Position numbers and translations under genes: made by a program
Notes under the pieces: generated by a model
What the model was told of the DNA's origin: nothing
Seen by the model: the letters and a program-made list of their open reading frames with translations, nothing else
The model's database searches: none
IMG/VR virus record: IMGVR_UViG_3300032265_000516
Location: 1-45,934 of that record
Direction: 5' to 3' (one strand)
Length of the DNA stretch: 45,934 bases
Source: a virus
In this document: positions 34,090 to 45,934 of the stretch, piece by piece
How the letters are laid out: each line of letters starts with the position of its first letter
Numbering within the stretch: position 1 is the first letter of the stretch

Positions 34090-36291
34090 ATGGCACGCTA
34101 TAATACAGTATCGTTATTTTTAACAACGTCTGGCACTACGACCATGACGTATGCTATTAATAATAGCTTTATGACCATTACTGGTTCACCTGGAATAACG
34201 CTTACCCTAGTTAGTCCAGTTTATACAGTTGGTTATACACAGACATTTTACAATGCAACTGGTGGTGCAATAACAATTGCAACTCCGGCTGGTAATATTC
34301 AAGGTAATAATTTTACGGCAGCAACTAGCCAAGCAATGCCGGCAAACACTACTTATTCAGTTAGTAGTGACGGAACAAACTACTATATATTAATTAACAC
34401 TGGTGGTGCGCTTAGTGTTCTTAATGGTTTAACTGCTGATACTTTAACAGTTTCAACAACTGCTACAATTAGTCCAAGCGGAAACGTAACTGTTAAACCA
34501 TCTGGCACATTTACTTTAGCTCCAACCTCAACTGGTGCAATATGTAACGTTTCAATTGGTAGTGCGCAACCAGCAAGTGGTGCATTTACTACATTAACAG
34601 CTAACAGCGCATCAACATTTACTGCTGGAACTGCTTCAACTGGAACTGGTTCTGGAACAGTTGTTATCACTGGTGGTTTAGGGGTCAGCGGTGCAACATA
34701 CGGTGCTTGCATTTATGATAACAGTGCTCGTGTGCTTACTAGTGTAACAGTCAGCCCAGGCACAGGTATTAGTGGCGGCGGCACAATGACTGGTCCAGTT
34801 GCTAGCGTAACATTAAACAACACTGGTGTGTTAAGTTTAACAGGCACAAGCGGTCAAGTTTCGGTTAGTGCATCAACTGGTAATATTACTTTAACTTTAC
34901 CACAAACAATTTCAAGCGGTGCGGCACCTACATTCTGTGGCGGTAATTTTAGTTGCATTCCAAACGGTGCATTAATTAACAACTCAATTACAGTTTCAGC
35001 TGGAACTGGTTTAGGAGGCGGTGGAACCGTAGCTTTAGGCAGTTCAGTAACACTGACAAATGCTGGTGTTACAAGTTTGTCAGGCACAGCTAACCAAGTT
35101 TCAGTTAGTGCATCTACTGGCGGCGTTACTATTAGTTTGCCGCAAAACATTAATAGCGGTGCAAGTCCTACATTTAACGGATCAAACTTCTCATGTATTC
35201 CTGCTGGTAACTTATGCGGATCTACTTTAAACAGCCAAGTTACTGCTTCAAGTTTAACATCGTTAGGAACACTAACAGGTATGTATTCAACTGGTTGCGT
35301 GTGCGTAGCTAGTAACTTTATTGCACAAGGTTTGATGTATACCGGTAACTGCTTCTGTTCAGCAGGCGCAGGCTTAATTAATAACTTGTATTCACCAAAC
35401 TGTTTCTGCGTAGGCGGTTCAGCAATTATTGCTGGTAACACAATCATGTATGGAGCACTAACAGTTTGCGGACAAATTTCTTATCCGCCTCCTCCAACAG
35501 GATCTTCATTATATGAAGGTTCTAGTTCAAGCACAAACGGTGGAACACAAGCATATACATGGTATGCACCTACTGGTGTTACCTCAGTATCTGTGTTAAC
35601 AATTGGTGCTGGTTCAGGCGGTTACTATGGCTGGGCATCATGTGGTGGCGGTGGTGGTGGCTTATCATATTCAAATGGTGTTGGTGTTAGCCCAGGATCA
35701 GGTTATACAATTCAAGTTGGTAACGGCGGATGCTGGAGCCAATCAGGTGGCGGATATTCATGTTTCCCAGGTGTATTAGCAGGTGGCGGACAATGCGGAT
35801 GCTGTGTAGGTTGTGGATGTATTGGTGGCCCTGGTGGCCCTGGAACAGTTGCTTACCCTAACACTGCTGGCGGTGGTGGCGGTGGTGCTGGATATGGTCC
35901 AAATCAGTGCTGGTCAAATAATTCTGGCTATACTGGATGCTACGGTGGCGGTGGATCAGCTACATCGCACCATAGTTCAACTTATGGAACTGGTGGTGGC
36001 GGTGGAACTGGCGCTAACGGTCAAGGATCAAACGGAACTTGCGGACGTCCAGACTACGGTCATGGTAACGGATCAGGCGGTGGCGGCGGATCAGGCGGAA
36101 CTTGCGGATATCCTGGCGAGCCATGGTCTAACGGTCAAGGACACGGCTACAATTGTGGTGGAAACTACGGTGGCGGCGGTGGCGGCGGTGGCACATCACA
36201 CGGTGGTGGATACGGCGGCCGTGGTGCAGTCCGTATTTTATGGCCTGGATCAACTAGAAGCTGGCCATCAACTGGAACTGGTAGCCCTTAA
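34090..36291 (+). CDS. Tail fibre tip/adhesin with glycine- and cysteine-rich C-terminus
   Basis: A 733-aa protein with AGAGAG upstream of the ATG. Residues about 246-380 hold two copies of the fibre repeat G(V)L/TSL(S/T)GT..QVSVSASTG followed by LPQ.I.SGA.PTF, well known in phage tail fibres. Residues about 400-460 contain CxC pairs at 403/405, 421/423 and 438/440. From about 511 to the end the protein is very rich in glycine, with about 13 further cysteines, and closes with GRGAVRILWPG...WPSTGTG. That ending matches the 'GAVRIIW...FPST' terminus of glycine-rich domains in T4-like marine phages. Known relatives (T4-type adhesin gp38) use polyglycine sandwich tips for receptor binding, so a distal adhesin is likely. 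Confidence 0.75.
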   Translation: MARYNTVSLFLTTSGTTTMTYAINNSFMTITGSPGITLTLVSPVYTVGYTQTFYNATGGAITIATPAGNIQGNNFTAATSQAMPANTTYSVSSDGTNYYILINTGGALSVLNGLTADTLTVSTTATISPSGNVTVKPSGTFTLAPTSTGAICNVSIGSAQPASGAFTTLTANSASTFTAGTASTGTGSGTVVITGGLGVSGATYGACIYDNSARVLTSVTVSPGTGISGGGTMTGPVASVTLNNTGVLSLTGTSGQVSVSASTGNITLTLPQTISSGAAPTFCGGNFSCIPNGALINNSITVSAGTGLGGGGTVALGSSVTLTNAGVTSLSGTANQVSVSASTGGVTISLPQNINSGASPTFNGSNFSCIPAGNLCGSTLNSQVTASSLTSLGTLTGMYSTGCVCVASNFIAQGLMYTGNCFCSAGAGLINNLYSPNCFCVGGSAIIAGNTIMYGALTVCGQISYPPPPTGSSLYEGSSSSTNGGTQAYTWYAPTGVTSVSVLTIGAGSGGYYGWASCGGGGGGLSYSNGVGVSPGSGYTIQVGNGGCWSQSGGGYSCFPGVLAGGGQCGCCVGCGCIGGPGGPGTVAYPNTAGGGGGGAGYGPNQCWSNNSGYTGCYGGGGSATSHHSSTYGTGGGGGTGANGQGSNGTCGRPDYGHGNGSGGGGGSGGTCGYPGEPWSNGQGHGYNCGGNYGGGGGGGGTSHGGGYGGRGAVRILWPGSTRSWPSTGTGSP

Positions 36292-36317: not shown

Positions 36318-36860
36318 ATGCTTTATATGTATGTAGATCAAAATGGAGACCCTACCGGTCTTCCATTAATACAATCAAACGTAGAAGACTTGCTTGGGAC
36401 ACGGATTATTACCCCAGAGCTTTTAAAAGAACATAATCTAGCAGAGATTATAAATTGTTACGATTGTCGTCCTGCTGAATACCAAGTTGCTACTAAAGGT
36501 GAGATTGTAAAAAATGCCGATGGTAATATAGAGCAATTATGGGATGTTCGAGAAATGACTGACAAAGAAAAAGTCAGAACATGGATTGAAGGTGCTAGAT
36601 TTTTTAAATTGCTTAATAGTGATTGGACTCAATTAGCAGACTGCCCGTTAAGTGCAGAAGAAAAAGCGGCCTGGGCCACTTATAGACAAGCGTTACGAGA
36701 CATAACGGATAACATTGATCTTCCAAATTTAAAAAGTCATATAGCAGTTCCATGGCCAACCCCGCCATCTACAACTAGCCGTTGGACTCCAAGTTTAGAT
36801 GAACCGCCAAATCCGTCAACTGCAAACGTATTTGTTAATATGGGTGTAGGAAGGATATAA
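36318..36860 (+). CDS. Tail assembly chaperone-like protein (Phage_tail_APC type)
   Basis: A 180-aa protein with CGGAG 8 nt before the ATG. The N-terminal half (MLYMYVDQNGDPTGLPLIQSN ... TPELLKEHNL) is the variable, fibre-matching type of sequence. Residues about 88-150 carry the family core R...LL..sDWTQL.DcPLS...KAAWA.YRQALRDIT, followed by WP.PP, as in the Pfam phage tail assembly chaperone family (PF16778). It lies immediately after the presumed adhesin gene, the usual place for a fibre chaperone (compare T4 gene 38). It likely helps the 733-aa protein fold or trimerise. Residues after 150 are Pro/Thr-rich. Confidence 0.7.
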   Translation: MLYMYVDQNGDPTGLPLIQSNVEDLLGTRIITPELLKEHNLAEIINCYDCRPAEYQVATKGEIVKNADGNIEQLWDVREMTDKEKVRTWIEGARFFKLLNSDWTQLADCPLSAEEKAAWATYRQALRDITDNIDLPNLKSHIAVPWPTPPSTTSRWTPSLDEPPNPSTANVFVNMGVGRI

Positions 36861-36887
36861 AAAAAAGGGCTATTAAAGCCCTTTTTT
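36861..36887. terminator. Bidirectional intrinsic terminator between convergent genes
   Basis: A perfect 11-bp stem, AAAAAAGGGCT / AGCCCTTTTTT, with a 5-nt loop ATTAA, starts directly after the stop codon of the chaperone gene. It gives a T run on either strand, so it can end both the fibre transcript (plus) and the two-gene minus unit. The stop codon of the minus gene overlaps its right arm. Confidence 0.9.
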
Positions 36888-37650
36888 AACGACTGATAAA
36901 ATGAAACGGGCATTTAGATTTTTCGTTTCGATCGATCATTTTTTTGTGCCACGCTAGATTTTTTTCAAATTTATTAGTAGTGCCATACTCAAATCTCATC
37001 TTGTTATACTCACTAGTTTCTATTAAATGATTTTTAATAACTACTTCTTTTTCAGATAAAGGAGTAATGTGTGCAATAGGTTGCCCGGCTTCTATAACAA
37101 ATCTATAGTCATGTTTAGGATGAATCATTATGTTAATATTAGTAGTCAATTGATACTTGTAACTTACTACTCCTGGTAATACAGTATAATCACTAACAGC
37201 ACTCATATTCCACGTTGGCTGAGTAAATGACCAATACACATTATCTTTTGTTTTTAGGAACCAAGGACTTTCAAATTTAATATGAAAGTGTCCATTCTCA
37301 ACAGGTAGAAATCCTGCCCATTGATGTGGATCATGACTTTGCGCGGGAGTAATATGGTCTGCAAATTGCCAGTTACATTCTCTGCTAGTAATGTGTATAG
37401 CAACATCTGACCACATAGGTAACATCACACCATGTTGAAAACTATCAATTAACCCGGGACATCCTTTCATTGTAGGTTGCTCGCCGAGTGTATTGTTTAA
37501 ACTAGGGTTTTGTGTATTATATGTTTTTGGTAATTTTTTCCACCAGTCCGGGTAATGCTTATTAGCATGTTCGATCGGAGAATATTTACAAACGTCTGGT
37601 CGGTCTGTAAAACAATCTAATACTATTTTGTTTCGTTTAAAAAAGAACAA
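36886..37650 (-). CDS. Hypothetical protein, 254 aa, TTG start
   Basis: The start is TTG (37650-37648), supported by GGAGAA 4 nt upstream and by its position one base after the stop of the preceding minus gene. The next in-frame Met is about 60 residues in and would cut off the aromatic N-terminal part. The protein is rich in Trp, His, Tyr and Pro, with the motif KYSPIEHANKHYPDWWKKLP near residues 22-41 and GCPGLIDSFQHGVMLPMWSD near 64-83. Similar 'YPDWWK.LP' proteins occur, as I recall, beside oxygenase and halogenase genes in marine T4-like phages, without assigned function. The beta-rich, His-rich pattern (HGVM; HFHIKFESPW) could suit a cupin-like fold, but that is only an impression. It converges on the terminator at 36861. 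Confidence 0.75.
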   Translation of the reverse strand: MFFFKRNKIVLDCFTDRPDVCKYSPIEHANKHYPDWWKKLPKTYNTQNPSLNNTLGEQPTMKGCPGLIDSFQHGVMLPMWSDVAIHITSRECNWQFADHITPAQSHDPHQWAGFLPVENGHFHIKFESPWFLKTKDNVYWSFTQPTWNMSAVSDYTVLPGVVSYKYQLTTNINIMIHPKHDYRFVIEAGQPIAHITPLSEKEVVIKNHLIETSEYNKMRFEYGTTNKFEKNLAWHKKMIDRNEKSKCPFHFISR

Positions 37651-37651
37651 G

Positions 37652-38302
37652 TTATTCTCCGTTTACAAACCGAAGATTTCCTGATATAGAAATTCGGTAT
37701 TCGTCTGAAGAATAAAACGGGTTTACGCTATGTGCTAGTGTTGACGGAAATAGTGCTAGTCGTCCTTCCCAGGTGCTGTCAACTGGTAAAACAAGACTAC
37801 AAAATTGTCCTAAAATATTAACATAGTGAAACGTAAATTTTGATGTTCTTGGCCCACCGCTGTTTACTGTAGGAAACACAGCATCTTCGTCTTCTAACTT
37901 GTATGGAATTTTCATCCAAATAACAAAACTCAACACTCCTGTATGCAAGTGAGGAGGATTAAACTCATGTTTCTTCTGATAGTTAACCCATAATTCTGTT
38001 AATTCTAGTTTATGATTTCCGACATGACTTCCGAATGTTTGATAATACTGATATCGATCTTCATATGCCTGCGCCATTTGAAGCATAAAAGGTTGTAAAA
38101 ACTCTATCATGTCATCCATTTTGTATTCTTTTTCCATATGCCCTAATAAGTTTTTATTATTAGGGACAGATTTAGAAAAATTTTCATTTTCTATTTTATT
38201 AAGATAATCACGTAACGGATTTAACACCGACTTTGGTAGATTACATGTTAATACACCAAAGTTAGGAGGGCTGTTAAAATCTACGATTGTTTCTTCTATC
38301 AT
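37652..38302 (-). CDS. 2OG-Fe(II) oxygenase-like protein (D)
   Basis: A 216-aa protein, first gene of the minus-strand pair, with a weak GGAAA SD. The central NPPHLHTGVLSFVIWMKIP segment and the C-terminal GRLALFPSTLAHSVNP....YRISISGN segment match the two halves of a phage 2OG-Fe(II) oxygenase core: first His motif, distal His after 'FPS.L.H.V.P', and the 2OG-binding Arg. The first motif aligns as HxH rather than HxD with the three oxygenases on the plus strand (39989, 40600, 42132), from which it is clearly diverged. The expected reaction is oxidation, usually hydroxylation, of an unknown substrate with 2-oxoglutarate and O2. Substrate and activity are not predictable from sequence. Confidence 0.65.
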   Translation of the reverse strand: MIEETIVDFNSPPNFGVLTCNLPKSVLNPLRDYLNKIENENFSKSVPNNKNLLGHMEKEYKMDDMIEFLQPFMLQMAQAYEDRYQYYQTFGSHVGNHKLELTELWVNYQKKHEFNPPHLHTGVLSFVIWMKIPYKLEDEDAVFPTVNSGGPRTSKFTFHYVNILGQFCSLVLPVDSTWEGRLALFPSTLAHSVNPFYSSDEYRISISGNLRFVNGE

Positions 38303-38359
38303 GTTATTTCCAGTAGTTAACTATATATCTGTTGACCCGCTATCAAGAAATAATCTTGG
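38303..38359. other. Divergent intergenic region
   Basis: The 104 bp between the diverging operons contain the sigma70-type promoter for the plus strand (listed separately). For the minus strand there is only a weak pair, TTGATA (38346-38341) and TATAGT (38325-38320), with a short 15-nt spacer. A GTTAAC palindrome (38316-38321) is also present. No operator-like long inverted repeat is evident. Confidence 0.4.
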
Positions 38360-38389
38360 TTGACAAAAGTTAGATAATTAAGTTATAAT
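38360..38389 (+). promoter_or_regulatory. Consensus sigma70-type promoter for the tailoring operon
   Basis: TTGACA (38360-38365) and TATAAT (38384-38389) are both perfect consensus hexamers, separated by 18 nt in an AT-rich spacer. The start point would be near 38396, leaving only about 10 nt, including AGGG (38397-38400), before the ATG at 38407. Host RNA polymerase should read it without phage factors, unlike the late-type sites of the fibre genes. Confidence 0.8.
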
Positions 38390-38406
38390 GTTACATAGGG
38401 ATCGAG

Positions 38407-39996
38407 ATGCCAAAAAAAATTGAAAAAGTTGTTATTGTAGGTGGTGGATCTGCTGGCTGGATGTCAGCGGCGCATCTTATTAAATTCTTTCCAAATTGGA
38501 ATATAACTGTTGTTGAAAGTCCAGATATTCCCATTGTCGGCGTAGGCGAAAGCACCTTAGGACAAATTCGTAATTGGACCAATGCGCTAGGGATCGATGA
38601 AAACGATTTTATGAAGCATACAAATGCATCATATAAGATGAGCATTAAATTTACTGATTTTTATAATAAAGATGCAGGATCGTTCCACTATCCTTTTGGA
38701 ATCCCAGTGTTCTATGATGCGCCAGAAGAACTACTAGAATGGCAAGCTAAAAAAGTAGTGTATCCGGATACGCCTGTTGAAGACTACGCCAGGACGTATT
38801 ATCCAATAATGCCTCTTGTTGAGAATAACAAATACACTAAAAATGAAGACGGCGACTTAGACGGGTTTAGAACTGATCTTAGCGTTGCGTATCATTTTGA
38901 TTCTGCATTGTTTGGCCAATGGCTTAAAACACACTTTTGCTTGCCAAAAGGTGTAAACAACATACGACAAACTGTAGTGAATATCCCAACGGACGAGAAT
39001 GGTATTAAACATTTAGAACTTAACAACGGAGAAATTGTTACAGCTGATTTGTTTATTGATTGCACAGGATGGAAAAGTTTACTTTTAGCAGAAACATTAA
39101 AAGAGCCATTTATATCATGGAATGACACATTGCCTAACAATAAGGCATGGGCTACGCAAGTTGATTATAAAAATATAGAAAAAGAATTAGAAGGTTATAC
39201 TAACTGCACTGCTATCGGAAATGGGTGGGTTTGGAATATACCACTATGGAGCAGATTAGGAACTGGCTATGTATATAGTGATAAATTTATCAGTGACGCT
39301 GATGCATTAGAAGAATTTAAACAACATCTTATGAGTGATAAGATGACTATTCCTCGAACTCGAGAAGAAGTCGATTCTTACTCATATAGAAATATTACTA
39401 TGCGTGTAGGTATACATGAACGCACATGGGTAAAAAATGTAGTTGCTATTGGTCTTAGTGCCGGATTTATTGAACCACTAGAAAGCAATGGATTATTCAC
39501 TGTTCATGAATTTTTATCTTCGTTAGTTAATACCCTTGAAAGAGATTATGTTACTCAATGGGATAAAGATGTGTATAATACTGCGTGTAAAGCTATGTAT
39601 ACTAATTTTTCTGAATTTGTAGCATTACATTATGCATTAAGTGTTAGAGATGACACACCTTATTGGAAGGCAGTAACTAGTAAGACTTATAGTTATGATC
39701 TAGTTCATAGAATTCCAACCACACATGTGGGATTTACAGATTTAGCAGATCGTAAATTATTTAAATTTGCACACGAAGGTGGTGGCGGCATTCATTGTAT
39801 TGCTACTGGTATGCATTATTTTGTATTGCATAGACAAAATTTAATGTATGCCGAAAACCATAGACAAGTTGATCCAAAATTAAGATGTGACGAGTTTGTT
39901 TTTAGAAGAAAATTCTTACAACAAAAATGGCAAGCAGTTGCAGATCGGTCTCCAACAATTTATCAATATTTAAAAGACAATATTCATAATGAATAA
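38407..39996 (+). CDS. Flavin-dependent (tryptophan-type) halogenase
   Basis: A 529-aa protein of normal family length. It has the FAD-binding GGGSAGW (G12-x-G14-x-x-G17), VGVGEST at 44-50, the lysine equivalent to catalytic Lys79 of PrnA (K77, in NASYKMSIKF), the halogenase signature WxWxIP (W274-V-W276-N-I278-P279), and EPLESNG (356-362), whose E359 matches the catalytic Glu of PrnA/RebH. All key residues are present, so it is probably active with FADH2, O2 and halide. A related enzyme, VirX1 from cyanophage Syn10, is known to be a halogenase that prefers iodide. The substrate here is unknown, and no flavin reductase gene is seen in the window. It is the first gene after the sigma70-type promoter and overlaps the next gene by 8 bp. 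Confidence 0.88.
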   Translation: MPKKIEKVVIVGGGSAGWMSAAHLIKFFPNWNITVVESPDIPIVGVGESTLGQIRNWTNALGIDENDFMKHTNASYKMSIKFTDFYNKDAGSFHYPFGIPVFYDAPEELLEWQAKKVVYPDTPVEDYARTYYPIMPLVENNKYTKNEDGDLDGFRTDLSVAYHFDSALFGQWLKTHFCLPKGVNNIRQTVVNIPTDENGIKHLELNNGEIVTADLFIDCTGWKSLLLAETLKEPFISWNDTLPNNKAWATQVDYKNIEKELEGYTNCTAIGNGWVWNIPLWSRLGTGYVYSDKFISDADALEEFKQHLMSDKMTIPRTREEVDSYSYRNITMRVGIHERTWVKNVVAIGLSAGFIEPLESNGLFTVHEFLSSLVNTLERDYVTQWDKDVYNTACKAMYTNFSEFVALHYALSVRDDTPYWKAVTSKTYSYDLVHRIPTTHVGFTDLADRKLFKFAHEGGGGIHCIATGMHYFVLHRQNLMYAENHRQVDPKLRCDEFVFRRKFLQQKWQAVADRSPTIYQYLKDNIHNE

Positions 39997-40603
39997 AATG
40001 TATCCTTTATTTCCGCAAGCAGTTTTTACTGCGGAAACATCGCGACCTAGATTTAATGATGTTATTGAATTTTGCAAAACATTAGAATATGGGCCAAATG
40101 GTGGTGGCAATTTTACAAGTTTAAATACAGATATTTTATCTCATCCTATGTTTGCTGAAATAAAATCTATGATTGAATCAGCTATACAAGAATACACTAC
40201 AAACGTAATGGAGTGGAAGGCTAATTTTTATATAATTCAATCATGGATTAATAAAAATCCCCCTAAGACTGCTCATCATGAGCACTATCACGCTAACAGT
40301 TTTATTAGCGGAGTCTTTTATCTTAAGCCATTAAGTCCTGATTTTTTATCGTTCGGCAGTGGACGACAGTTGACTCTTGCTCCTCCTACAGTAAATTTTA
40401 ATATGTGGAACAGTCAAAAATATGATTTGCCTCTTAGTGATAATATGATTGTGTTATTTCCATCTACGTTATTACATAGTGTTGGTGAAAATCGCACTTC
40501 TGAAGATCGTATGAGTTTAGCGTTCAACGTATTTTTAGAAGGTGTGCTAGGTGCAGAAAAAATAACTAGCCAATTACGATTAACTAAAAAGGTTATGGCA
40601 TGA
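39989..40603 (+). CDS. 2OG-Fe(II) oxygenase (A), PF13759-like
   Basis: A 204-aa protein. The listed start (MNKMYPLFP) overlaps the halogenase stop by 8 bp. The next Met at 39998 is equally plausible and would match MSDIYPLFS of its neighbour more closely. The core HHEHYHANSFISGVFYL (first metal motif) and NMIVLFPSTLLHSVGEN....RMSLAFNVF (distal His, then Arg) match the putative 2OG-Fe(II) oxygenase family common in T4-like marine phages. It is a close paralogue of the next gene and the two probably arose by tandem duplication. Substrate is unknown. Co-transcription with a halogenase suggests successive tailoring of one scaffold (inference). Confidence 0.8.
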   Translation: MNKMYPLFPQAVFTAETSRPRFNDVIEFCKTLEYGPNGGGNFTSLNTDILSHPMFAEIKSMIESAIQEYTTNVMEWKANFYIIQSWINKNPPKTAHHEHYHANSFISGVFYLKPLSPDFLSFGSGRQLTLAPPTVNFNMWNSQKYDLPLSDNMIVLFPSTLLHSVGENRTSEDRMSLAFNVFLEGVLGAEKITSQLRLTKKVMA

Positions 40604-41193
40604 GTGACATTTATCCATTGTTTTCTACACCTGTCTTTAAGACACATTTTGATAGGCCTCCAATTGACGAATTAATTAATTATTGTAAAAGTTCAGATAC
40701 TAGGGTAAACAAAGGTGGCAATTATACTAGTTTAAACAACTATGCATTGGACAATCCTGTATTTGCTGAATTGAGAACATTTATCGAAAATGCCATTAAT
40801 GAATATGCCGGTGCAATGGAGTGGCAAAATGAATTTTATATTACACAATCATGGTTTAACGTAAATCCTTCTGGAACAGCGCATCATGAACACTATCATT
40901 TAAACAGTATAGTAAGCGGAGTTTTTTATCTTACAGCAGGCTCTAACGATTTTCTAACGTTTCATAGCGGAAATAGGCCTTCAATTGGGTTAACTACTAA
41001 TTCGTTTAATATGATGAATGCACCTTCCTGGGACTTAGAAGTAGCTACAAATGATCTTGTATTATTTCCGTCGTCAGTGTTGCATAGCGTTAAACCAAAT
41101 AAAGAAAAATACGAAAGAATTAGTTTAGCATTTAACACTTTTGTTAAAGGCACACTAGGATTAAATGAAAATTTAACACATTTAAAATTATAA
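40600..41193 (+). CDS. 2OG-Fe(II) oxygenase (B), paralogue of A
   Basis: A 197-aa protein coupled to A by an ATGA overlap. It retains HHEHYHLNSIVSGVFYL and LVLFPSSVLHSVKPN....RISLAFNTF, so all expected metal and 2OG ligands are in place. The N-terminal Y-PLF-T-PVF opening is shared with A and the third paralogue at 42132. It diverges from A mainly in the loop between the two motifs (GNRPSIGLTTNSFNMMNAPSWDL), the usual place for substrate selectivity, so A and B may act on different positions or substrates (inference). Confidence 0.8.
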   Translation: MSDIYPLFSTPVFKTHFDRPPIDELINYCKSSDTRVNKGGNYTSLNNYALDNPVFAELRTFIENAINEYAGAMEWQNEFYITQSWFNVNPSGTAHHEHYHLNSIVSGVFYLTAGSNDFLTFHSGNRPSIGLTTNSFNMMNAPSWDLEVATNDLVLFPSSVLHSVKPNKEKYERISLAFNTFVKGTLGLNENLTHLKL

Positions 41194-41202
41194 AGAGAAA
41201 AT

Positions 41203-42135
41203 ATGAATAGAAATACTGCGTTTGTAATCAATGGTGGGGCTGGCAGAGTAATGTGTGCGATCCCTGCATTAGAAATGTATGAAAAAGAACATCCAGAGGA
41301 TGATTTTATAATCGTCGTTGAATTTTTTATTGATTTATTTAAAGGTCATCCTACCCTATATAAGAGATGCTATGACCATCATCACAGACATTTATATGAA
41401 GATAAGCTAAAAAACATGAATGTTTATTTTCCAGAATGTTATCATGTCTGGGAATATTTTAATCAGAAAGCATCTATTAGTCAGGCATTTGATATTTTGA
41501 TTAATAAACAAGGTATTAGAAAATTACCTATACCTACACTATCACTAAGCAACGAAGAATTACAAGGCGGTGCAGAAACTATTAAAACAATTAAGAAAGA
41601 TTTTCAAAATAAAAAAGCAGTTGTGTTCCAACCATTCGGCCGAGGATCTACATTAACACCGGGATCAATTAACAATGATCCTCAAGGCAGATCTTTTTCG
41701 ATGTCAGATGCTGTTCAAATTATTAGAAGATTGCAAAAGAAATATACAGTAATTGTAATGTCAGAAAATCAAATTGATTTCAAGTTGTTTGGAATTAAAG
41801 AAGTAGTTCCGCAACTTACAAATATGTCATTGCGCCGATGGATGGGTGTTATTAACTCCGCTGATTATTTCTTAGGATGTGATAGTGTAGGACAACATTT
41901 AGCAGTATCTCTAAACAAGCCATTAACTGTGGTGTTAGGCGGCACGTTTAAAGAAAATGTATCATATCCAGACTATGAAAAAATTAGTATTATCGATTTA
42001 GGCGAAGGCAAACGTATGTATGCTCCTATTAGAATGTGCTCTAGCGAAATAGCAGACACTAATAATGAAAGATTAATGGCATTAACTGAAGCTAATTTAA
42101 ATAAGATTATTACATCAATTGATAAAAATATATGA
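41203..42135 (+). CDS. GT9-like glycosyltransferase (heptosyltransferase fold)
   Basis: A 310-aa protein with AGAGAA upstream of the ATG. The first half has the INGGAGRVMCAIPALEMYEKEHP opening of GT-B enzymes that act on sugar nucleotides. The second half has KKAVVFQPFGRGS (about 145) and DYFLGCDSVGQHLAVSLNKPL (D227, S228, H232), then VVLGGTF, matching the GT9 / ADP-heptose:LPS heptosyltransferase C-terminal signature (D-S-G-x-x-H..A......L.G.T). The usual Gly after Asp-Ser is replaced by Val-Gly. It probably transfers a sugar to an acceptor made or modified by this operon. Donor and acceptor are unknown. It overlaps the next gene by 4 bp. Confidence 0.7.
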   Translation: MNRNTAFVINGGAGRVMCAIPALEMYEKEHPEDDFIIVVEFFIDLFKGHPTLYKRCYDHHHRHLYEDKLKNMNVYFPECYHVWEYFNQKASISQAFDILINKQGIRKLPIPTLSLSNEELQGGAETIKTIKKDFQNKKAVVFQPFGRGSTLTPGSINNDPQGRSFSMSDAVQIIRRLQKKYTVIVMSENQIDFKLFGIKEVVPQLTNMSLRRWMGVINSADYFLGCDSVGQHLAVSLNKPLTVVLGGTFKENVSYPDYEKISIIDLGEGKRMYAPIRMCSSEIADTNNERLMALTEANLNKIITSIDKNI

Positions 42136-42743
42136 CCCCATCAGAAATCTATCCTTTGTTTCCAAGTGTAGTTTATAAAAATTCACTTGATCGTAAATTA
42201 ACTTCAGAAGAGTTAGAGTTTATCTATTCTTCTGAAGTTTTTGAACAAAGTTTAGGTAATGAAATTTCAACAAGTAACTGGGTATTAGAAGATAGTGCTT
42301 TAAGTCAATTAAAAAAAGATTTGATGCAACATGTAAACATATATCTAAATGAAATTATGATGGTTGACGCTGAGTTATACATGACAAATTCATGGATAAA
42401 TGTAACTGAACATCAACGTCAACATGCTTTGCATAATCATAATAACAGTATAGTTAGCGGAGTATTTTATGTAAATGCTAGCGACAGCCAACCAAGCATT
42501 TCGTTCAATAGAATGGTTCCGCCGTTTTTCTTGCACATGCGGGCAAAACAATATACAATGTTTAACTCTATGGAATGGAACATTCCTATTGAAGATAATA
42601 ATATTATTATATTTCCTTCTCAATGTTTTCATTTCGTTAAACCAAACTTGACTAATAATCCACGAGTATCTATTGCATTTAATACATTTATTCGTGGAAA
42701 TATCGGCGGAGACGCTGAAGGTGCTGATTTAAATTTAAGGTAA
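42132..42743 (+). CDS. 2OG-Fe(II) oxygenase (C)
   Basis: A 203-aa protein starting in an ATGA overlap with the glycosyltransferase. It has the family opening IYPLFPSVVYKN, a first motif HALHNHNNSIVSGVFYV whose HNH aligns with HYH of A and B, and IIIFPSQCFHFVKPN....RVSIAFNTFIRG for the distal His and Arg. More diverged than A and B are from each other, it is placed after the glycosyltransferase rather than beside them. Expected activity is 2-oxoglutarate-dependent oxidation of an unknown substrate. Confidence 0.78.
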   Translation: MTPSEIYPLFPSVVYKNSLDRKLTSEELEFIYSSEVFEQSLGNEISTSNWVLEDSALSQLKKDLMQHVNIYLNEIMMVDAELYMTNSWINVTEHQRQHALHNHNNSIVSGVFYVNASDSQPSISFNRMVPPFFLHMRAKQYTMFNSMEWNIPIEDNNIIIFPSQCFHFVKPNLTNNPRVSIAFNTFIRGNIGGDAEGADLNLR

Positions 42744-42750
42744 AATTAAG

Positions 42751-44538
42751 ATGTCAACATGGATAGCTGGAATTACACGTGGGCATAACGCAAGCGTATG
42801 CTTACTTAAAGATGGAGAAGTTGTTTTTTCTTTAGAAGAAGAGCGACTTAGCCGGCAGAAGTATGACGGCGGCCCTCTTGCATGTATGGTAAAAATTTTA
42901 GAATATACTGACAAATTAGATTACCTTGTAATTGCACATACGCAAGCATTGTCAATAACTGCTGGTAGAATTGATTTTACTGGCGACGATATGTATACTG
43001 GCCTTGCTAGAAAACTAGGACTAATTGATCGTAAACTAGATATTTTTAATCACCCACAAGTTATAGATTTGTCATACAAGCATCACGCATTGCATGCCGC
43101 TTGTGCATTTTATCGTTCAGGGTGGGACGACGCAGTTGCGTTAGTAGTAGACGGCGCTGGAACATTTATTCCAATGACCTTAGAAGGCACTGAAGCAATG
43201 ACATGGGAAACTGAATCTATAATTAATTGTTCATATCCGGCTAAGTTTAAAACAATTTTCAAACACTATGGTGCAAAAGAAGTTATTAGCACAATGTTTA
43301 CAGAAGCTCCTTCAGATTTTATAGGTGAAGAAGGTGAAACACACTATGCAATTTTTACAGATCGTGCTGGAATTACAAAAACATACGAAGCAGTAACTCA
43401 ATATTGTGGTTGGAATTCAATTGAAGCTGGAAAAACTATGGGATTATTTCCTTACGGAAAACCGAACCCGTCTATTCCAAAACTGTTTGAAACAGACAGC
43501 ATGGAGCCATTGTCTAACAGAAATGTAGTATTACCTACATATCCAAATGGTGCTAAAGTTAATGCTGGCGCCTATGCAAGTTTAAAAGACTTCCCAGAAG
43601 AAGGCACTGACCCTACACTAATGCAAAATCGTAGAGACCTTGCTTATGCAGTGCAAACTCAAACACAAGATCAAGTATTAAATTTAATTTATAAAGCAGT
43701 AACATTGTCGGGAAAAAAGAGAGTGGTTATTTCCGGGGGCTATGGCCTTAATTGCGTAGCCAACTATTATTATTTAGATAAACTAAGAAAAGACGGTATT
43801 GAGCTCTATGTGGAACCTATCAGTAACGATTCTGGGACTGCTATAGGTGCTGCCTTGCTTGTATGGTATGAACAAACACAAAGCACTAGTATCGGTAAAC
43901 ATGACACATTATATCTTGGACCTAAGCATAATTATACTGTAGACCAAATAATAGATATTGCATCAAAATCTGAGGTTAGTATAGTTGATGCTACTTACAG
44001 CGATATTGTTAGTTTACTAATTAATAAAAATATTGTAACGTTATATCAGGGTTCAAGTGAAAACGGTCCTCGAGCTTTAGGAAACAGATCGGTGTTATTT
44101 GACCCACGATTTAAAGATGGCAAAGATTATGTTAACAATGTTAAACATCGTGAATATTTTAGACCGTTTGCCGGCAGTATTTTACAAGAACATGTGCATG
44201 AGTGGTTTGATCTACGAGGTATAGAAGACAGTCCGTTTATGATGTATGCAGTAAATTGCCAGCCAGGTATTGAAGAAAAGATCCCAAGCATTATACACGT
44301 AGATGGAACTTGTAGAATTCAAACAGTTACAGAAGAACAAAATTATCATTATTATAATTTAATCAAAACTTTTTACAACGAAACAGGATGTCCTATATTG
44401 TTCAACACTAGTTTTAATCTCGGAGGAGAGCCTTTAGTTGAGACTTTAGAAGATGCAATTTGGACTTTACAAAATTCTGATATCGAATATTTGTTTTTAC
44501 CAGAATTTAATAAATTAATTACAGTGAGCAACACATGA
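42751..44538 (+). CDS. NodU/CmcH-type O-carbamoyltransferase
   Basis: A 595-aa protein, normal length for the family. It has an N-terminal Kae1/actin-like domain with GHNASVCLLKDG (11-22), HHALHAA (111-117), VDGAG (133-137), SGGYGLNCVAN (328-338) and NDSGTAIGAA (about 361-370). A C-terminal domain starts with ENGPRALGNRS (437-447) and FNTSFNLGGEPLVE (about 551-564). These are the hallmark motifs of enzymes that use carbamoyl phosphate and ATP to carbamoylate hydroxyl groups (nodulation factor, cephamycin, tobramycin). Members are known in T4-like phages, and some phage-derived ones have been reported to carbamoylate 5-hydroxymethylcytosine in DNA. Here the substrate could be a sugar, a metabolite hydroxyl or a nucleobase. 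No hydroxymethylase gene is visible in this window. Confidence 0.88.
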   Translation: MSTWIAGITRGHNASVCLLKDGEVVFSLEEERLSRQKYDGGPLACMVKILEYTDKLDYLVIAHTQALSITAGRIDFTGDDMYTGLARKLGLIDRKLDIFNHPQVIDLSYKHHALHAACAFYRSGWDDAVALVVDGAGTFIPMTLEGTEAMTWETESIINCSYPAKFKTIFKHYGAKEVISTMFTEAPSDFIGEEGETHYAIFTDRAGITKTYEAVTQYCGWNSIEAGKTMGLFPYGKPNPSIPKLFETDSMEPLSNRNVVLPTYPNGAKVNAGAYASLKDFPEEGTDPTLMQNRRDLAYAVQTQTQDQVLNLIYKAVTLSGKKRVVISGGYGLNCVANYYYLDKLRKDGIELYVEPISNDSGTAIGAALLVWYEQTQSTSIGKHDTLYLGPKHNYTVDQIIDIASKSEVSIVDATYSDIVSLLINKNIVTLYQGSSENGPRALGNRSVLFDPRFKDGKDYVNNVKHREYFRPFAGSILQEHVHEWFDLRGIEDSPFMMYAVNCQPGIEEKIPSIIHVDGTCRIQTVTEEQNYHYYNLIKTFYNETGCPILFNTSFNLGGEPLVETLEDAIWTLQNSDIEYLFLPEFNKLITVSNT

Positions 44539-45728
44539 AAATAGCTGTTATAGGTGTAGGAACCGCCGGTATAATGTCATTATGCCACACGCTGAAATGG
44601 ATGTGTCCAGACGACGGCAGCACTATCACGTCTATCTACGACCCGTCTGTAAAAATACTAGGTATTGGAGAAACTTCTCAGCCTAATTTTGTCAAATCGT
44701 TATTCGAAGGTGCCAATTTTAATTTTTTATTAGACGCGCATGAACTTGACGCAACTGTAAAATTTGGTGCAAGTTATAAAAAATGGAGGGAAACTAATTT
44801 TGACATGCCGATGGAACCTCCGTCATATGGCATACATTTTAACAACTTTAAATTAAAAGATTTTTGTTTTAAAAGATTTAACAAACTATGGGGTGATAAA
44901 TTTAAAGTGGTTGAAGGTAAAGTTGTCGATGTAATTAATAGAAAGACACATGCAGAAGTTATTGTTAATAATTTTTCTCACCATTTTGATTACGTTATTG
45001 ATTGCCGAGGTTACCCATCGGACTTAACAGATTATGTTGTCCTTGATGATCTAACTGTTAATCATTGTTTAGTTAATATCATAGATAAGCCAGGGACATG
45101 GAATACTAGTATTAACCAAGCAACTAGTCATGGCTGGATGTTTGGTATTCCTCTATCAAATCGTCAAGGATGGGGCTACTTATATAACGATAAAATCACA
45201 ACTCGAGAAGAAGCAGTTAGTGAAATAGAAAGTTTATTTGGTATTCCTAATCCTAAATTAAATGAATTTACATTTAAAAGTTATTATGCTAAAACATTCT
45301 TCGATGGTCGTATTCTAAAAAATGGAAACAGGGCGTTCTTTTTTGAACCTATTGAAGGTATGGCTGGATTTTTTTATGATACAACATTAAGATTTTTTGT
45401 TGATCATGTTGCTGGAAGAATTAATGTAGATGTATTAAATGAAAATTTGTCCAGAGCAGTAAAAGATATAGAAAATTTTATATATTTTTTATACCAAGGT
45501 GGCAGCACATTTGACAGTAAATTTTGGAATATAACTAAAGAAAAATGCGCTCGAAATTTACGCAATAAAACTAGTCACAGATGGAGGTTGGTATTACTGA
45601 ATATTAAAAAAGAATTAGAAAATCCAACATTAAGACAAGATTCATCTATGACAGGACGTTGGAGTCCAGATTTATGGGTCAAGTGGGCTGAAAATTTAGG
45701 GTATGATTATTTTAAGGATACACAATGA
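44535..45728 (+). CDS. Second flavin-dependent halogenase-like protein (diverged)
   Basis: A 397-aa protein coupled by ATGA to the carbamoyltransferase. It is about 130 residues shorter than the halogenase at 38407. It has the FAD motif GVGTAG (7-12), LGIGETS (42-48), a Lys (K76 in DATVKFGASY) that aligns with the catalytic Lys, W201-M-F203-G-I205-P206 in place of WxWxIP, and FEPIEGMAG with E274 in the place of the catalytic Glu. The fold and likely FAD binding are clear. The changed signature and missing C-terminal region leave it open whether it halogenates, hydroxylates or has lost activity. The start of the next gene closely resembles it. Confidence 0.72.
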   Translation: MKIAVIGVGTAGIMSLCHTLKWMCPDDGSTITSIYDPSVKILGIGETSQPNFVKSLFEGANFNFLLDAHELDATVKFGASYKKWRETNFDMPMEPPSYGIHFNNFKLKDFCFKRFNKLWGDKFKVVEGKVVDVINRKTHAEVIVNNFSHHFDYVIDCRGYPSDLTDYVVLDDLTVNHCLVNIIDKPGTWNTSINQATSHGWMFGIPLSNRQGWGYLYNDKITTREEAVSEIESLFGIPNPKLNEFTFKSYYAKTFFDGRILKNGNRAFFFEPIEGMAGFFYDTTLRFFVDHVAGRINVDVLNENLSRAVKDIENFIYFLYQGGSTFDSKFWNITKEKCARNLRNKTSHRWRLVLLNIKKELENPTLRQDSSMTGRWSPDLWVKWAENLGYDYFKDTQ

Positions 45729-45934
45729 GAATCGGTGTTGTCGGCGTAGGAACGGCTGGGCTTATATCGCTATGCCACATGTTAGCGCATGCTCCTGAAA
45801 AAACAGTAGTCGTATCTATATACGATCCTAAAATTCCTATTTTAGGAATAGGTGAAAGTTCAACATTTGGTCTTCCAAAGATATTATTCCAAGGAACTGG
45901 TTTCAATTTACCTGAATTTGCAGACGAATTAGAT
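45725..45934 (+). CDS. Third flavin-dependent halogenase-like protein (3'-truncated by window end)
   Basis: An ATG inside the ATGA overlap with the previous stop opens a frame to the window end, 70 codons. It reads MRIGVVGVGTAGLISLCHML, then SIYDPKIPILGIGESS. Both the FAD-binding GVGTAG and the ILGIGE(S/T)S segment match the gene before it more closely than the halogenase at 38407, so the last two genes are probably a tandem duplicate pair. Catalytic residues lie beyond the window. Confidence 0.75.
   Translation, partial: MRIGVVGVGTAGLISLCHMLAHAPEKTVVVSIYDPKIPILGIGESSTFGLPKILFQGTGFNLPEFADELD

Follow-up and report, generated by a model that had tools for sequence, protein, structure and literature searches.

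IMGVR_UViG_3300032265_000516 is a linear fragment, 45,934 bases long and with no tRNA genes, from a virus that infects aquatic bacteria (this whole stretch is called the window below), which ends in a cassette of ten open reading frames (ORFs; positions 36886-45934) encoding halogenase-like flavoproteins, 2-oxoglutarate (2OG)-Fe(II) oxygenases, a glycosyltransferase of the GT9 fold and an O-carbamoyltransferase. The reading that we favour is that this is a virion-tailoring cassette, which travels with the tip of the tail fibre and probably modifies it. Computation establishes the enzyme families, a conserved slot beside the fibre genes, an obligate pairing of GT9 with the carbamoyltransferase, and co-variation of that pair with cysteine-rich fibre tips. 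An earlier prediction made from the letters of the window alone (the original prediction) had described a modification cassette coupled to receptor-binding genes; such a cassette is real, and its families recur at the same slot across dozens of contigs.

The GT9-carbamoyltransferase pair and tip type

A scan for the carbamoyltransferase found 501 stretches, from which 80 loci were kept. In 45 of 46 dereplicated loci, a GT9 gene precedes the carbamoyltransferase at a distance of at most three genes, and the gene map shows a GT9 gene in the forty-sixth (L155) too. Most loci with the pair lack halogenases and have at most a few 2OG genes, so that GT9 and the carbamoyltransferase are the sole enzymes within a block of structural genes. 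Typically, one to three glycine- and cysteine-rich tips and a chaperone-like gene stand upstream of the pair, and a fibre of ~2150 amino acids (aa), followed by Nudix and gp15 genes, stands downstream.

A locus was scored as tip-positive when an unlabelled or tip ORF reached at least 15% Gly and at least 3% Cys over 150 aa. A Gly/Cys-rich tip of this kind is present in all 43 loci that have both the pair and a tip in view, compared with none of 23 loci that have the same slot without the pair. After dereplication and with a stricter limit for Gly, the proportions are 30 of 33 with the pair versus 0 of 14 without it (Fisher p 2e-9); all three misses are loci whose sequence stops close to the carbamoyltransferase, before the tip. 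On a tree of gp15, pair and tip type each change at least eight times, and the two agree in all four supported independent pairs. Among isolates, S-CAM3, S-SSM7 and P-SSM2 have the pair and tips with 8-12% Cys, whereas the tips of syn9, S-RIM44 and Sf-CH11 are poor in Cys and these phages gave no GT9 match; a carbamoyltransferase match in S-RIM44 lies far away, without GT9. S-CAM1 is a further cyanophage isolate that carries the pair.

Searches from other starting points gave similar associations. When the tip was sought first, 12 of 15 loci with a Cys-rich tip and downstream sequence had the pair directly behind the tip; the three exceptions belong to one lineage, in which the tip copy is at another fibre locus. 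In two of these contigs the carbamoyltransferase sits elsewhere on the contig, at a distance of ~27 kb, and for this reason the link between tip and pair exceeds adjacency; the third contig, a fragment, is 30 kb long. With GT9 as the starting point in a bacterial genome collection, a Cys-rich tip and a carbamoyltransferase were present in 7/7 contigs. The window tip as query returned only three loci, two already known and one partial, all with the pair, and a search of viral contigs for Cys-poor tips returned mainly contigs already in the set and short N-terminal matches. Since the pair accompanies only one of the two chemical types of tip in dozens of related phages, the enzymes encoded beside the tip probably decorate it.

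The seven contigs from the bacterial collection (L183-L189) are filed as metagenome-assembled genomes of Euryarchaeota, Neomarinimicrobiota, Rhodobacteraceae and Flavobacteriales; they look like T4-like phages and are probably mis-binned.

Halogenase genes partly follow a second property of the tip

A tip stretch with at least 30% Gly is present in 25 of the 33 loci that have halogenase genes, and in none of 33 that lack them. The tip of the window phage has both properties, being very Gly-rich and Cys-rich. Halogenases and 2OG enzymes occur without GT9 and carbamoyltransferase in some loci, and the pair occurs without halogenases in most; minimal loci (L024, L048, L065) have a halogenase with few other enzymes amid fibre genes. 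Hence, the cassette consists of at least two separable sub-modules and is not one fixed pathway. The original prediction had proposed a joint multistep pathway: the co-occurrence of the genes holds, and the single pathway gives way to sub-modules that can be separated. It had also named scattering of these genes among related phages as the outcome that would count against it; the genes do co-occur, though some cyanophages keep a halogenase elsewhere.

Two of the minimal arrangements merit description. In L024 (9.9-18.8 kb), and likewise in L025-L029, one HAL3 gene lies between Nudix-gp15 and a 2152-aa fibre, which has a Gly/Tyr/Trp-rich stretch and an apparent intramolecular chaperone end; this arrangement would be a good minimal system for testing a halogenase substrate. 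L048 (4248-8126) and L049 represent a different type of phage, in which a single HAL1 gene adjoins a fibre chaperone, with two other putative glycosyltransferases and a collagen-like fibre (GPTGPTGPSG repeats) flanking.

A conserved slot in distant phages

Three close relatives (L009, L010 and L012), whose proteins are 77-93% identical to those of the window, continue past the point where the window ends with HAL3, a P4H-like 2OG protein, a second dUTPase-fold protein, HAL4, HAL5 and a 2OG-like protein, after which the cassette meets Nudix, gp15 (PF16724) and gp14-type neck genes. The close relatives thus have five halogenase-like genes in total, and the cassette in the window is truncated by the window end. 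A 141-kb contig (L011; 63%) has identical cassette limits and four halogenase-like genes. Because these relatives share the same limits, the cassette can be said to fill the interval between tip and chaperone on one side and neck genes on the other; across related contigs the gene order is reshuffled and the content varies widely, and the interval is constant. The original prediction had suggested looking beyond 45934 for more enzymes, a flavin reductase or a DNA hydroxymethylase. The close relatives do have further enzymes; a search of 11 records gave no flavin reductase (PF01613), and one record of the 11 has a gene of thymidylate-synthase type.

In cyanophages the cassette families lie between fibre genes and gp13, and P-SSM2 and syn9 have them adjoining fibre genes. 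The terminase of L011 is nearest to those of PA5oct-type jumbo phages (54.6%) and not to those of cyanophages, and psbA is absent from all seven large fragments related to the window, being present only in the marine cyanophage-like contig G003. From these two observations, the cassette occurs in at least two T4-like groups that are only distantly related. For the same absence of psbA, the label 'cyanophage' was not assumed for the window phage. In a separate 345-kb contig (L107, 0.2-15.5 kb), the cassette is flanked on each side by a gene matching the tip protein of the window.

Genes of the window

Fibre genes occupy most of the window, encoding proteins of 1301, 1502, 3169 and 3961 aa and then the 733-aa tip protein. 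The ten cassette ORFs are all open and tightly packed, neighbours sharing 4-8 bases at several boundaries in an operon-like arrangement. The features are as follows.

12287-33736, plus strand: two giant fibre proteins (3169 and 3961 aa), 5' of the tip gene, from the ORF listing; Cys 0.4-0.5%, Trp ~1.5%
34090-36291, plus strand: fibre-tip (adhesin) protein, 733 aa; phrog_4474; Gly/Cys-rich C-terminal domain
36318-36860, plus strand: tail-fibre assembly chaperone; PF16778 (Phage_tail_APC) 54.8 bits against a cut-off of 26.6; PHROG annotation tail fiber assembly
36886-37650, minus strand: phrog_7084 protein with a predicted dUTPase-like fold; AlphaFold2 (AF2) model with pLDDT 83, Foldseek E 5e-4, Z 11.3
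37652-38302, minus strand: 2OG-Fe(II) oxygenase of PF13759 type (42 bits), H-x-H...H...R
38407-39996, plus strand: canonical flavin-dependent halogenase HAL1; PF04820 358 bits; PDB 6qgm (VirX1) E 2.4e-106; catalytic Lys, WVWNIP, EPLES
39989-40603, plus strand: 2OG-Fe(II) oxygenase; PF13759 60 bits
40600-41193, plus strand: 2OG-Fe(II) oxygenase; PF13759 68 bits; PDB 3bvc/2rg4 E ~1e-6
41203-42135, plus strand: GT9-fold, heptosyltransferase-like glycosyltransferase; phrog_8954 E 1.8e-122; model compared with GT9 structures
42132-42743, plus strand: 2OG-Fe(II) oxygenase; PF13759 69 bits
42751-44538, plus strand: O-carbamoyltransferase of the NodU/TobZ family; PF02543 and PF16861 over cut-off; PDB 7xb6 and TobZ 3ven
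44535-45728, plus strand: divergent halogenase-like flavoprotein HAL2; PF04820 89 bits; WMFGIP replaces WxWxIP
45725-45934, plus strand: first 70 aa of a third halogenase-like gene, HAL3; PF04820 21.6 bits, over cut-off; interrupted by the window end

HAL3 is seen at full length in the close relative L012 (9581-10792, 403 aa). Placement of the cassette directly after receptor-binding genes, as originally described, is confirmed by the tip and chaperone genes that precede it. The C-terminal 283 aa of the tip protein (35440-36288) are 35% Gly and 4.9% Cys and contain all seven of its Trp residues, five of which are invariant across six relatives; in L104, a close relative of the window, the richest 150 aa of the tip reach 45% Gly and 6.7% Cys. 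The domain is kept in relatives with an unrelated N-terminal shaft (L047). The two giant fibre proteins have repeated GDxVxYGGxxY units, which resemble carbohydrate-binding repeats.

Enzyme families and active sites

The original description of three halogenase-like flavoproteins, four 2OG-Fe(II) oxygenases, a GT9 transferase and a carbamoyltransferase is borne out at family level, with GT9 recognised by fold and HAL1 the only canonical halogenase. The match of HAL1 to PF04820 spans 413 of 458 positions, and that of HAL2 falls in two stretches. Among the window halogenases only HAL1 has all the catalytic motifs, and VirX1 is its nearest solved structure. The catalytic Lys (equivalent to PrnA K79) is present in 101 of 102 aligned halogenase relatives, the other having a gap. 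The catalytic Glu, at the position that we take to be equivalent to PrnA E346, lies in EPLES in HAL1 and EPIEG in the window HAL2, and is lost in some relatives of HAL2 and HAL3. The WxWxIP motif is present in HAL1 (WVWNIP) and absent from HAL2 (WMFGIP), and the latter is therefore called halogenase-like only; HAL2 to HAL5 have all diverged in this motif and in the residue following the catalytic Glu.

All four 2OG proteins in the window match PF13759 at 42-69 bits against a cut-off of 27. Across 98 relatives, the first and distal His ligands are each present in 98 and the 2OG-binding Arg in 96, and the middle metal ligand varies between His (64 relatives) and Asp (34), so that most have the variant H-x-H...H. 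This conservation of 2OG ligands, together with that of the halogenase Lys, argues from sequence that the enzymes are active.

By sequence, the GT9 protein falls below the Pfam cut-off (PF01075, 17.2 against 22 bits) and a sequence-profile search of PDB gave no GT9 match; the fold was therefore compared. The AlphaFold model (pLDDT 73) aligns with 3tov at Z 22.2 (root-mean-square deviation, rmsd, 3.4; 277 residues aligned), with WaaF at 20.0, WaaC at 18.7 and TibC at 18.1, and with other classes at Z ~11 or less. Heptose is the most likely donor sugar, to judge from the modelled fold and from the PfkB and epimerase neighbours in cyanophages. The carbamoyltransferase (42751-44538) matches both Carbam_trans_N (PF02543, 95 bits) and Carbam_trans_C (PF16861, 193 bits), and also GdmN.

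The gene at 36886-37650 is no recognised tailoring enzyme; on its AF2 model it is a dUTPase-fold protein (Z 11.3, rmsd 2.8, 126 residues aligned with dUTPase; Foldseek E 5e-4). The window copy has PGVVSYKY in place of catalytic motif 3 (GxIDxDY), with the Asp missing; GILDP is kept in some relatives. Members of this phrog_7084 family recur in cassettes (L009 13666-14454, L016 14070-15520, L084 11574-12362), sometimes as two copies, and the catalytic Asp is retained by some and lost by others. The P0005 family had no match by sequence in PDB and none in the phage collection, and PADLOC returned no defence match for six cassette proteins.

Some annotations in related isolates deserve revision. 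The 'DNA endonuclease V' (phrog_274) of S-SSM7 (L005 36960-37514, 'denV') and syn9 (L084 16418-18125) matches 2OG-Fe(II) sequences, and the annotation is probably wrong. In S-CAM3 (L080 20930-21587), the 106-aa 'phosphoheptose isomerase' has only a weak HAD/PNKP match and the 'cysteine dioxygenase' is a generic Cupin_2 protein; together with PfkB and an epimerase, they resemble nucleotide-sugar genes.

A model for tip modification

We envisage that, late in infection, the fibre-tip protein would be made together with its chaperone, and that GT9 would transfer a sugar, most likely heptose from a nucleotide sugar made by host or phage, to the Gly/Cys-rich tip. The NodU/TobZ-type enzyme could then O-carbamoylate the tip sugar, in the manner reported for WapO on lipopolysaccharide (LPS) heptose, while the 2OG oxygenases might hydroxylate the very Gly-rich tip, and the halogenase or halogenases, working on flavin reduced by the host, might halogenate or otherwise oxidise side chains of the tip, for which Trp and Tyr are candidates. 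A tip modified in this way may bind its receptor differently, or be altered in stability or in how it is recognised. In this scheme, gene content suggests which molecule is the acceptor, which sugar is added, in what order the steps run and what the phage gains.

Several observations weigh against tip modification. The gp15 tree contains only four supported independent switches, with which a sign test is unable to reach 0.05; the tip thresholds were chosen after the data had been seen; and 11 pair-bearing loci were set aside, mostly because the tip was off the contig. The loci overlap in ancestry and physical linkage is strong, tips and enzymes usually being close, so that shared inheritance explains part of the association. 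The association with halogenases is partial, eight halogenase-bearing loci having no very Gly-rich tip, and halogenase-like genes lie away from fibres in S-MS29, S-SSM7 (168 kb), S-B64, P-SSM2 and a Campylobacter phage. Furthermore, 2OG genes are scattered across cyanophage genomes, and tip modification assigns no role to the dUTPase-fold protein.

Alternative explanations

The original prediction had listed four candidate substrates: fibre residues, host surface glycan, phage DNA or a metabolite. Co-variation with the tip favours the first. The most serious competitor, which we nevertheless consider unlikely, is that the cassette remodels a glycan of the host surface (LPS or capsule), for example to block superinfection, with GT9 adding an LPS heptose that the carbamoyltransferase decorates. 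The fold of GT9 is nearest to WaaF and WaaC, WapO is a putative LPS-heptose carbamoyltransferase in Pseudomonas (PMC8005017), the cyanophage version has genes of sugar-nucleotide type (PfkB, epimerase, cupin), and glycan remodelling is proposed for cyanophage clusters in PMC7824862. It does not, however, predict that the pair should track the Cys content of the tip (43/43 versus 0/23), nor that the two genes should stand alone within a structural block in most loci, and the window cassette contains no identified membrane or lipid-linked enzyme.

It is less probable still that tip and enzymes are merely inherited together, the slot beside the fibre being a hotspot for cargo in which tip type and enzymes co-travel without any function that joins them. 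Such a hotspot would suit the shuffled order, the widely varying content and the different gene sets found in the slot of different phages, as well as the small number of supported switches. It accounts poorly for the two contigs on which the Cys-rich tip and the carbamoyltransferase co-occur ~27 kb apart, and for the retention of the tip domain, always with the pair, where the shaft has been replaced (L047); the conserved catalytic Lys and 2OG ligands also argue for active enzymes.

It is very unlikely that the genes form a biosynthetic cluster whose product, a small molecule with halogen and carbamoyl groups, acts as a toxin or antibiotic. This has been proposed for the S-SSM6a cluster (PMC7824862) and speculatively for a halogenase (PMC2984593), and VirX1 is active on small aromatics in vitro according to the title of its description. 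No scaffold-building enzyme (nonribosomal peptide synthetase, polyketide synthase or amino-acid ligase) was found in the window cassette or in the continuation of a close relative, however, and the sub-modules occur singly, among structural genes, and co-vary with tip type.

Carbamoyltransferases and glycosyltransferases are found in clusters for DNA hypermodification. Genes for a dUTPase-fold protein and a Nudix enzyme lie close by here, but phage DNA is the least credible substrate of all, because the C5-methyltransferase PF00145 was found in 0 of 11 records and the thymidylate-synthase-type PF00303 in 1 of 11 (many of them fragments, with PF12851 outside the search), and the 2OG enzymes are of PF13759 type, not TET/JBP, and lie among structural genes.

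Significance

Halogenases, carbamoyltransferases and 2OG oxygenases of marine phages have so far been filed as auxiliary metabolic genes, with proposed roles ranging from nitrogen sensing (PMC3037559) to antibiotics (PMC2984593; PMC7824862). Phage 2OG enzymes have been linked to nitrogen sensing and, with reference to earlier work, to DNA repair (PMC3037559). If the cassette does modify fibre tips, these abundant marine and freshwater genes would acquire a function in host recognition that can be tested, mass spectrometry on existing isolates could find what VirX1-type halogenases act on in nature, and the sequence of the tip alone would not define host range in these phages. More tentatively, we suggest that aquatic T4-like phages of at least two divergent lineages (cyanophages and the group with PA5oct-type terminase) may place combinations of a carbamoylated sugar, hydroxyls and halogens on Gly/Cys-rich tips by means of a swappable set of enzymes matched to tip type, which would give at least some VirX1-like halogenases a natural role and would be the first post-translational tailoring system of several enzymes for the receptor-binding tip of a phage.

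Comparison with known systems

The gene cluster itself is known, since PMC7824862, a comparative genomics study of jumbo phages from 2021, describes the version in S-SSM6a and reads it as capsule decoration or secondary metabolism. S-SSM6a and S-SSM7 resemble the window in that a single cluster combines carbamoyltransferases and 2OG enzymes with a halogenase and a cupin (PMC7824862); in S-SSM7 this cluster likewise lies between fibre genes and gp13. They differ from the relatives of the window, in which the number of halogenase-like genes rises to five and the cassette showed no phage heptose genes; a link to Cys-rich tips does not appear in the passages of PMC7824862 consulted. The version with five halogenase-like genes, the presence outside cyanophages and the tie to the chemical type of the tip appear to be new in the searchable literature, from which most subscription journals are excluded.

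HAL1 is a full-length relative of VirX1 (PDB 6qgm) with all of its motifs, unlike HAL2 to HAL5, which have diverged in WxWxIP and the post-Glu residue. VirX1 comes from cyanophage Syn10, which gives a close hit and whose sister phage syn9 has a similar cassette. To our knowledge, VirX1 has no natural substrate assigned to it. During adaptation of cyanophage S-TIM4 to new hosts, most mutations were in fibre and baseplate genes; the small number of non-virion genes that mutated included one annotated as 2OG (PMC6224464), a pattern that fits tip modification loosely.

TibC shares the GT9 fold (Z 18.1) and is a heptosyltransferase, at ~12% identity. It heptosylates a protein adhesin, and we know of no carbamoyltransferase partner for a GT9 of this type. 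In Pseudomonas, LPS heptosyltransferases and the NodU-like WapO combine a heptosyltransferase with a carbamoyltransferase to give carbamoyl-heptose (PMC8005017), in a cellular LPS pathway that is neither phage-borne nor adjacent to fibre genes. Mycobacteriophages glycosylate their virions with phage-encoded enzymes (Freeman 2023, as cited in PMC12619734), and in the loci studied here a glycosyltransferase gene does lie among virion structural genes. The glycans of mycobacteriophages are on capsid and tail-tube C-termini, unlike the fibre tip that is the probable target here, where GT9 is joined by a carbamoyltransferase and oxidising enzymes. With TibC, WapO and mycobacteriophage virion glycosylation as parallels, each step of the proposed tip modification is plausible.

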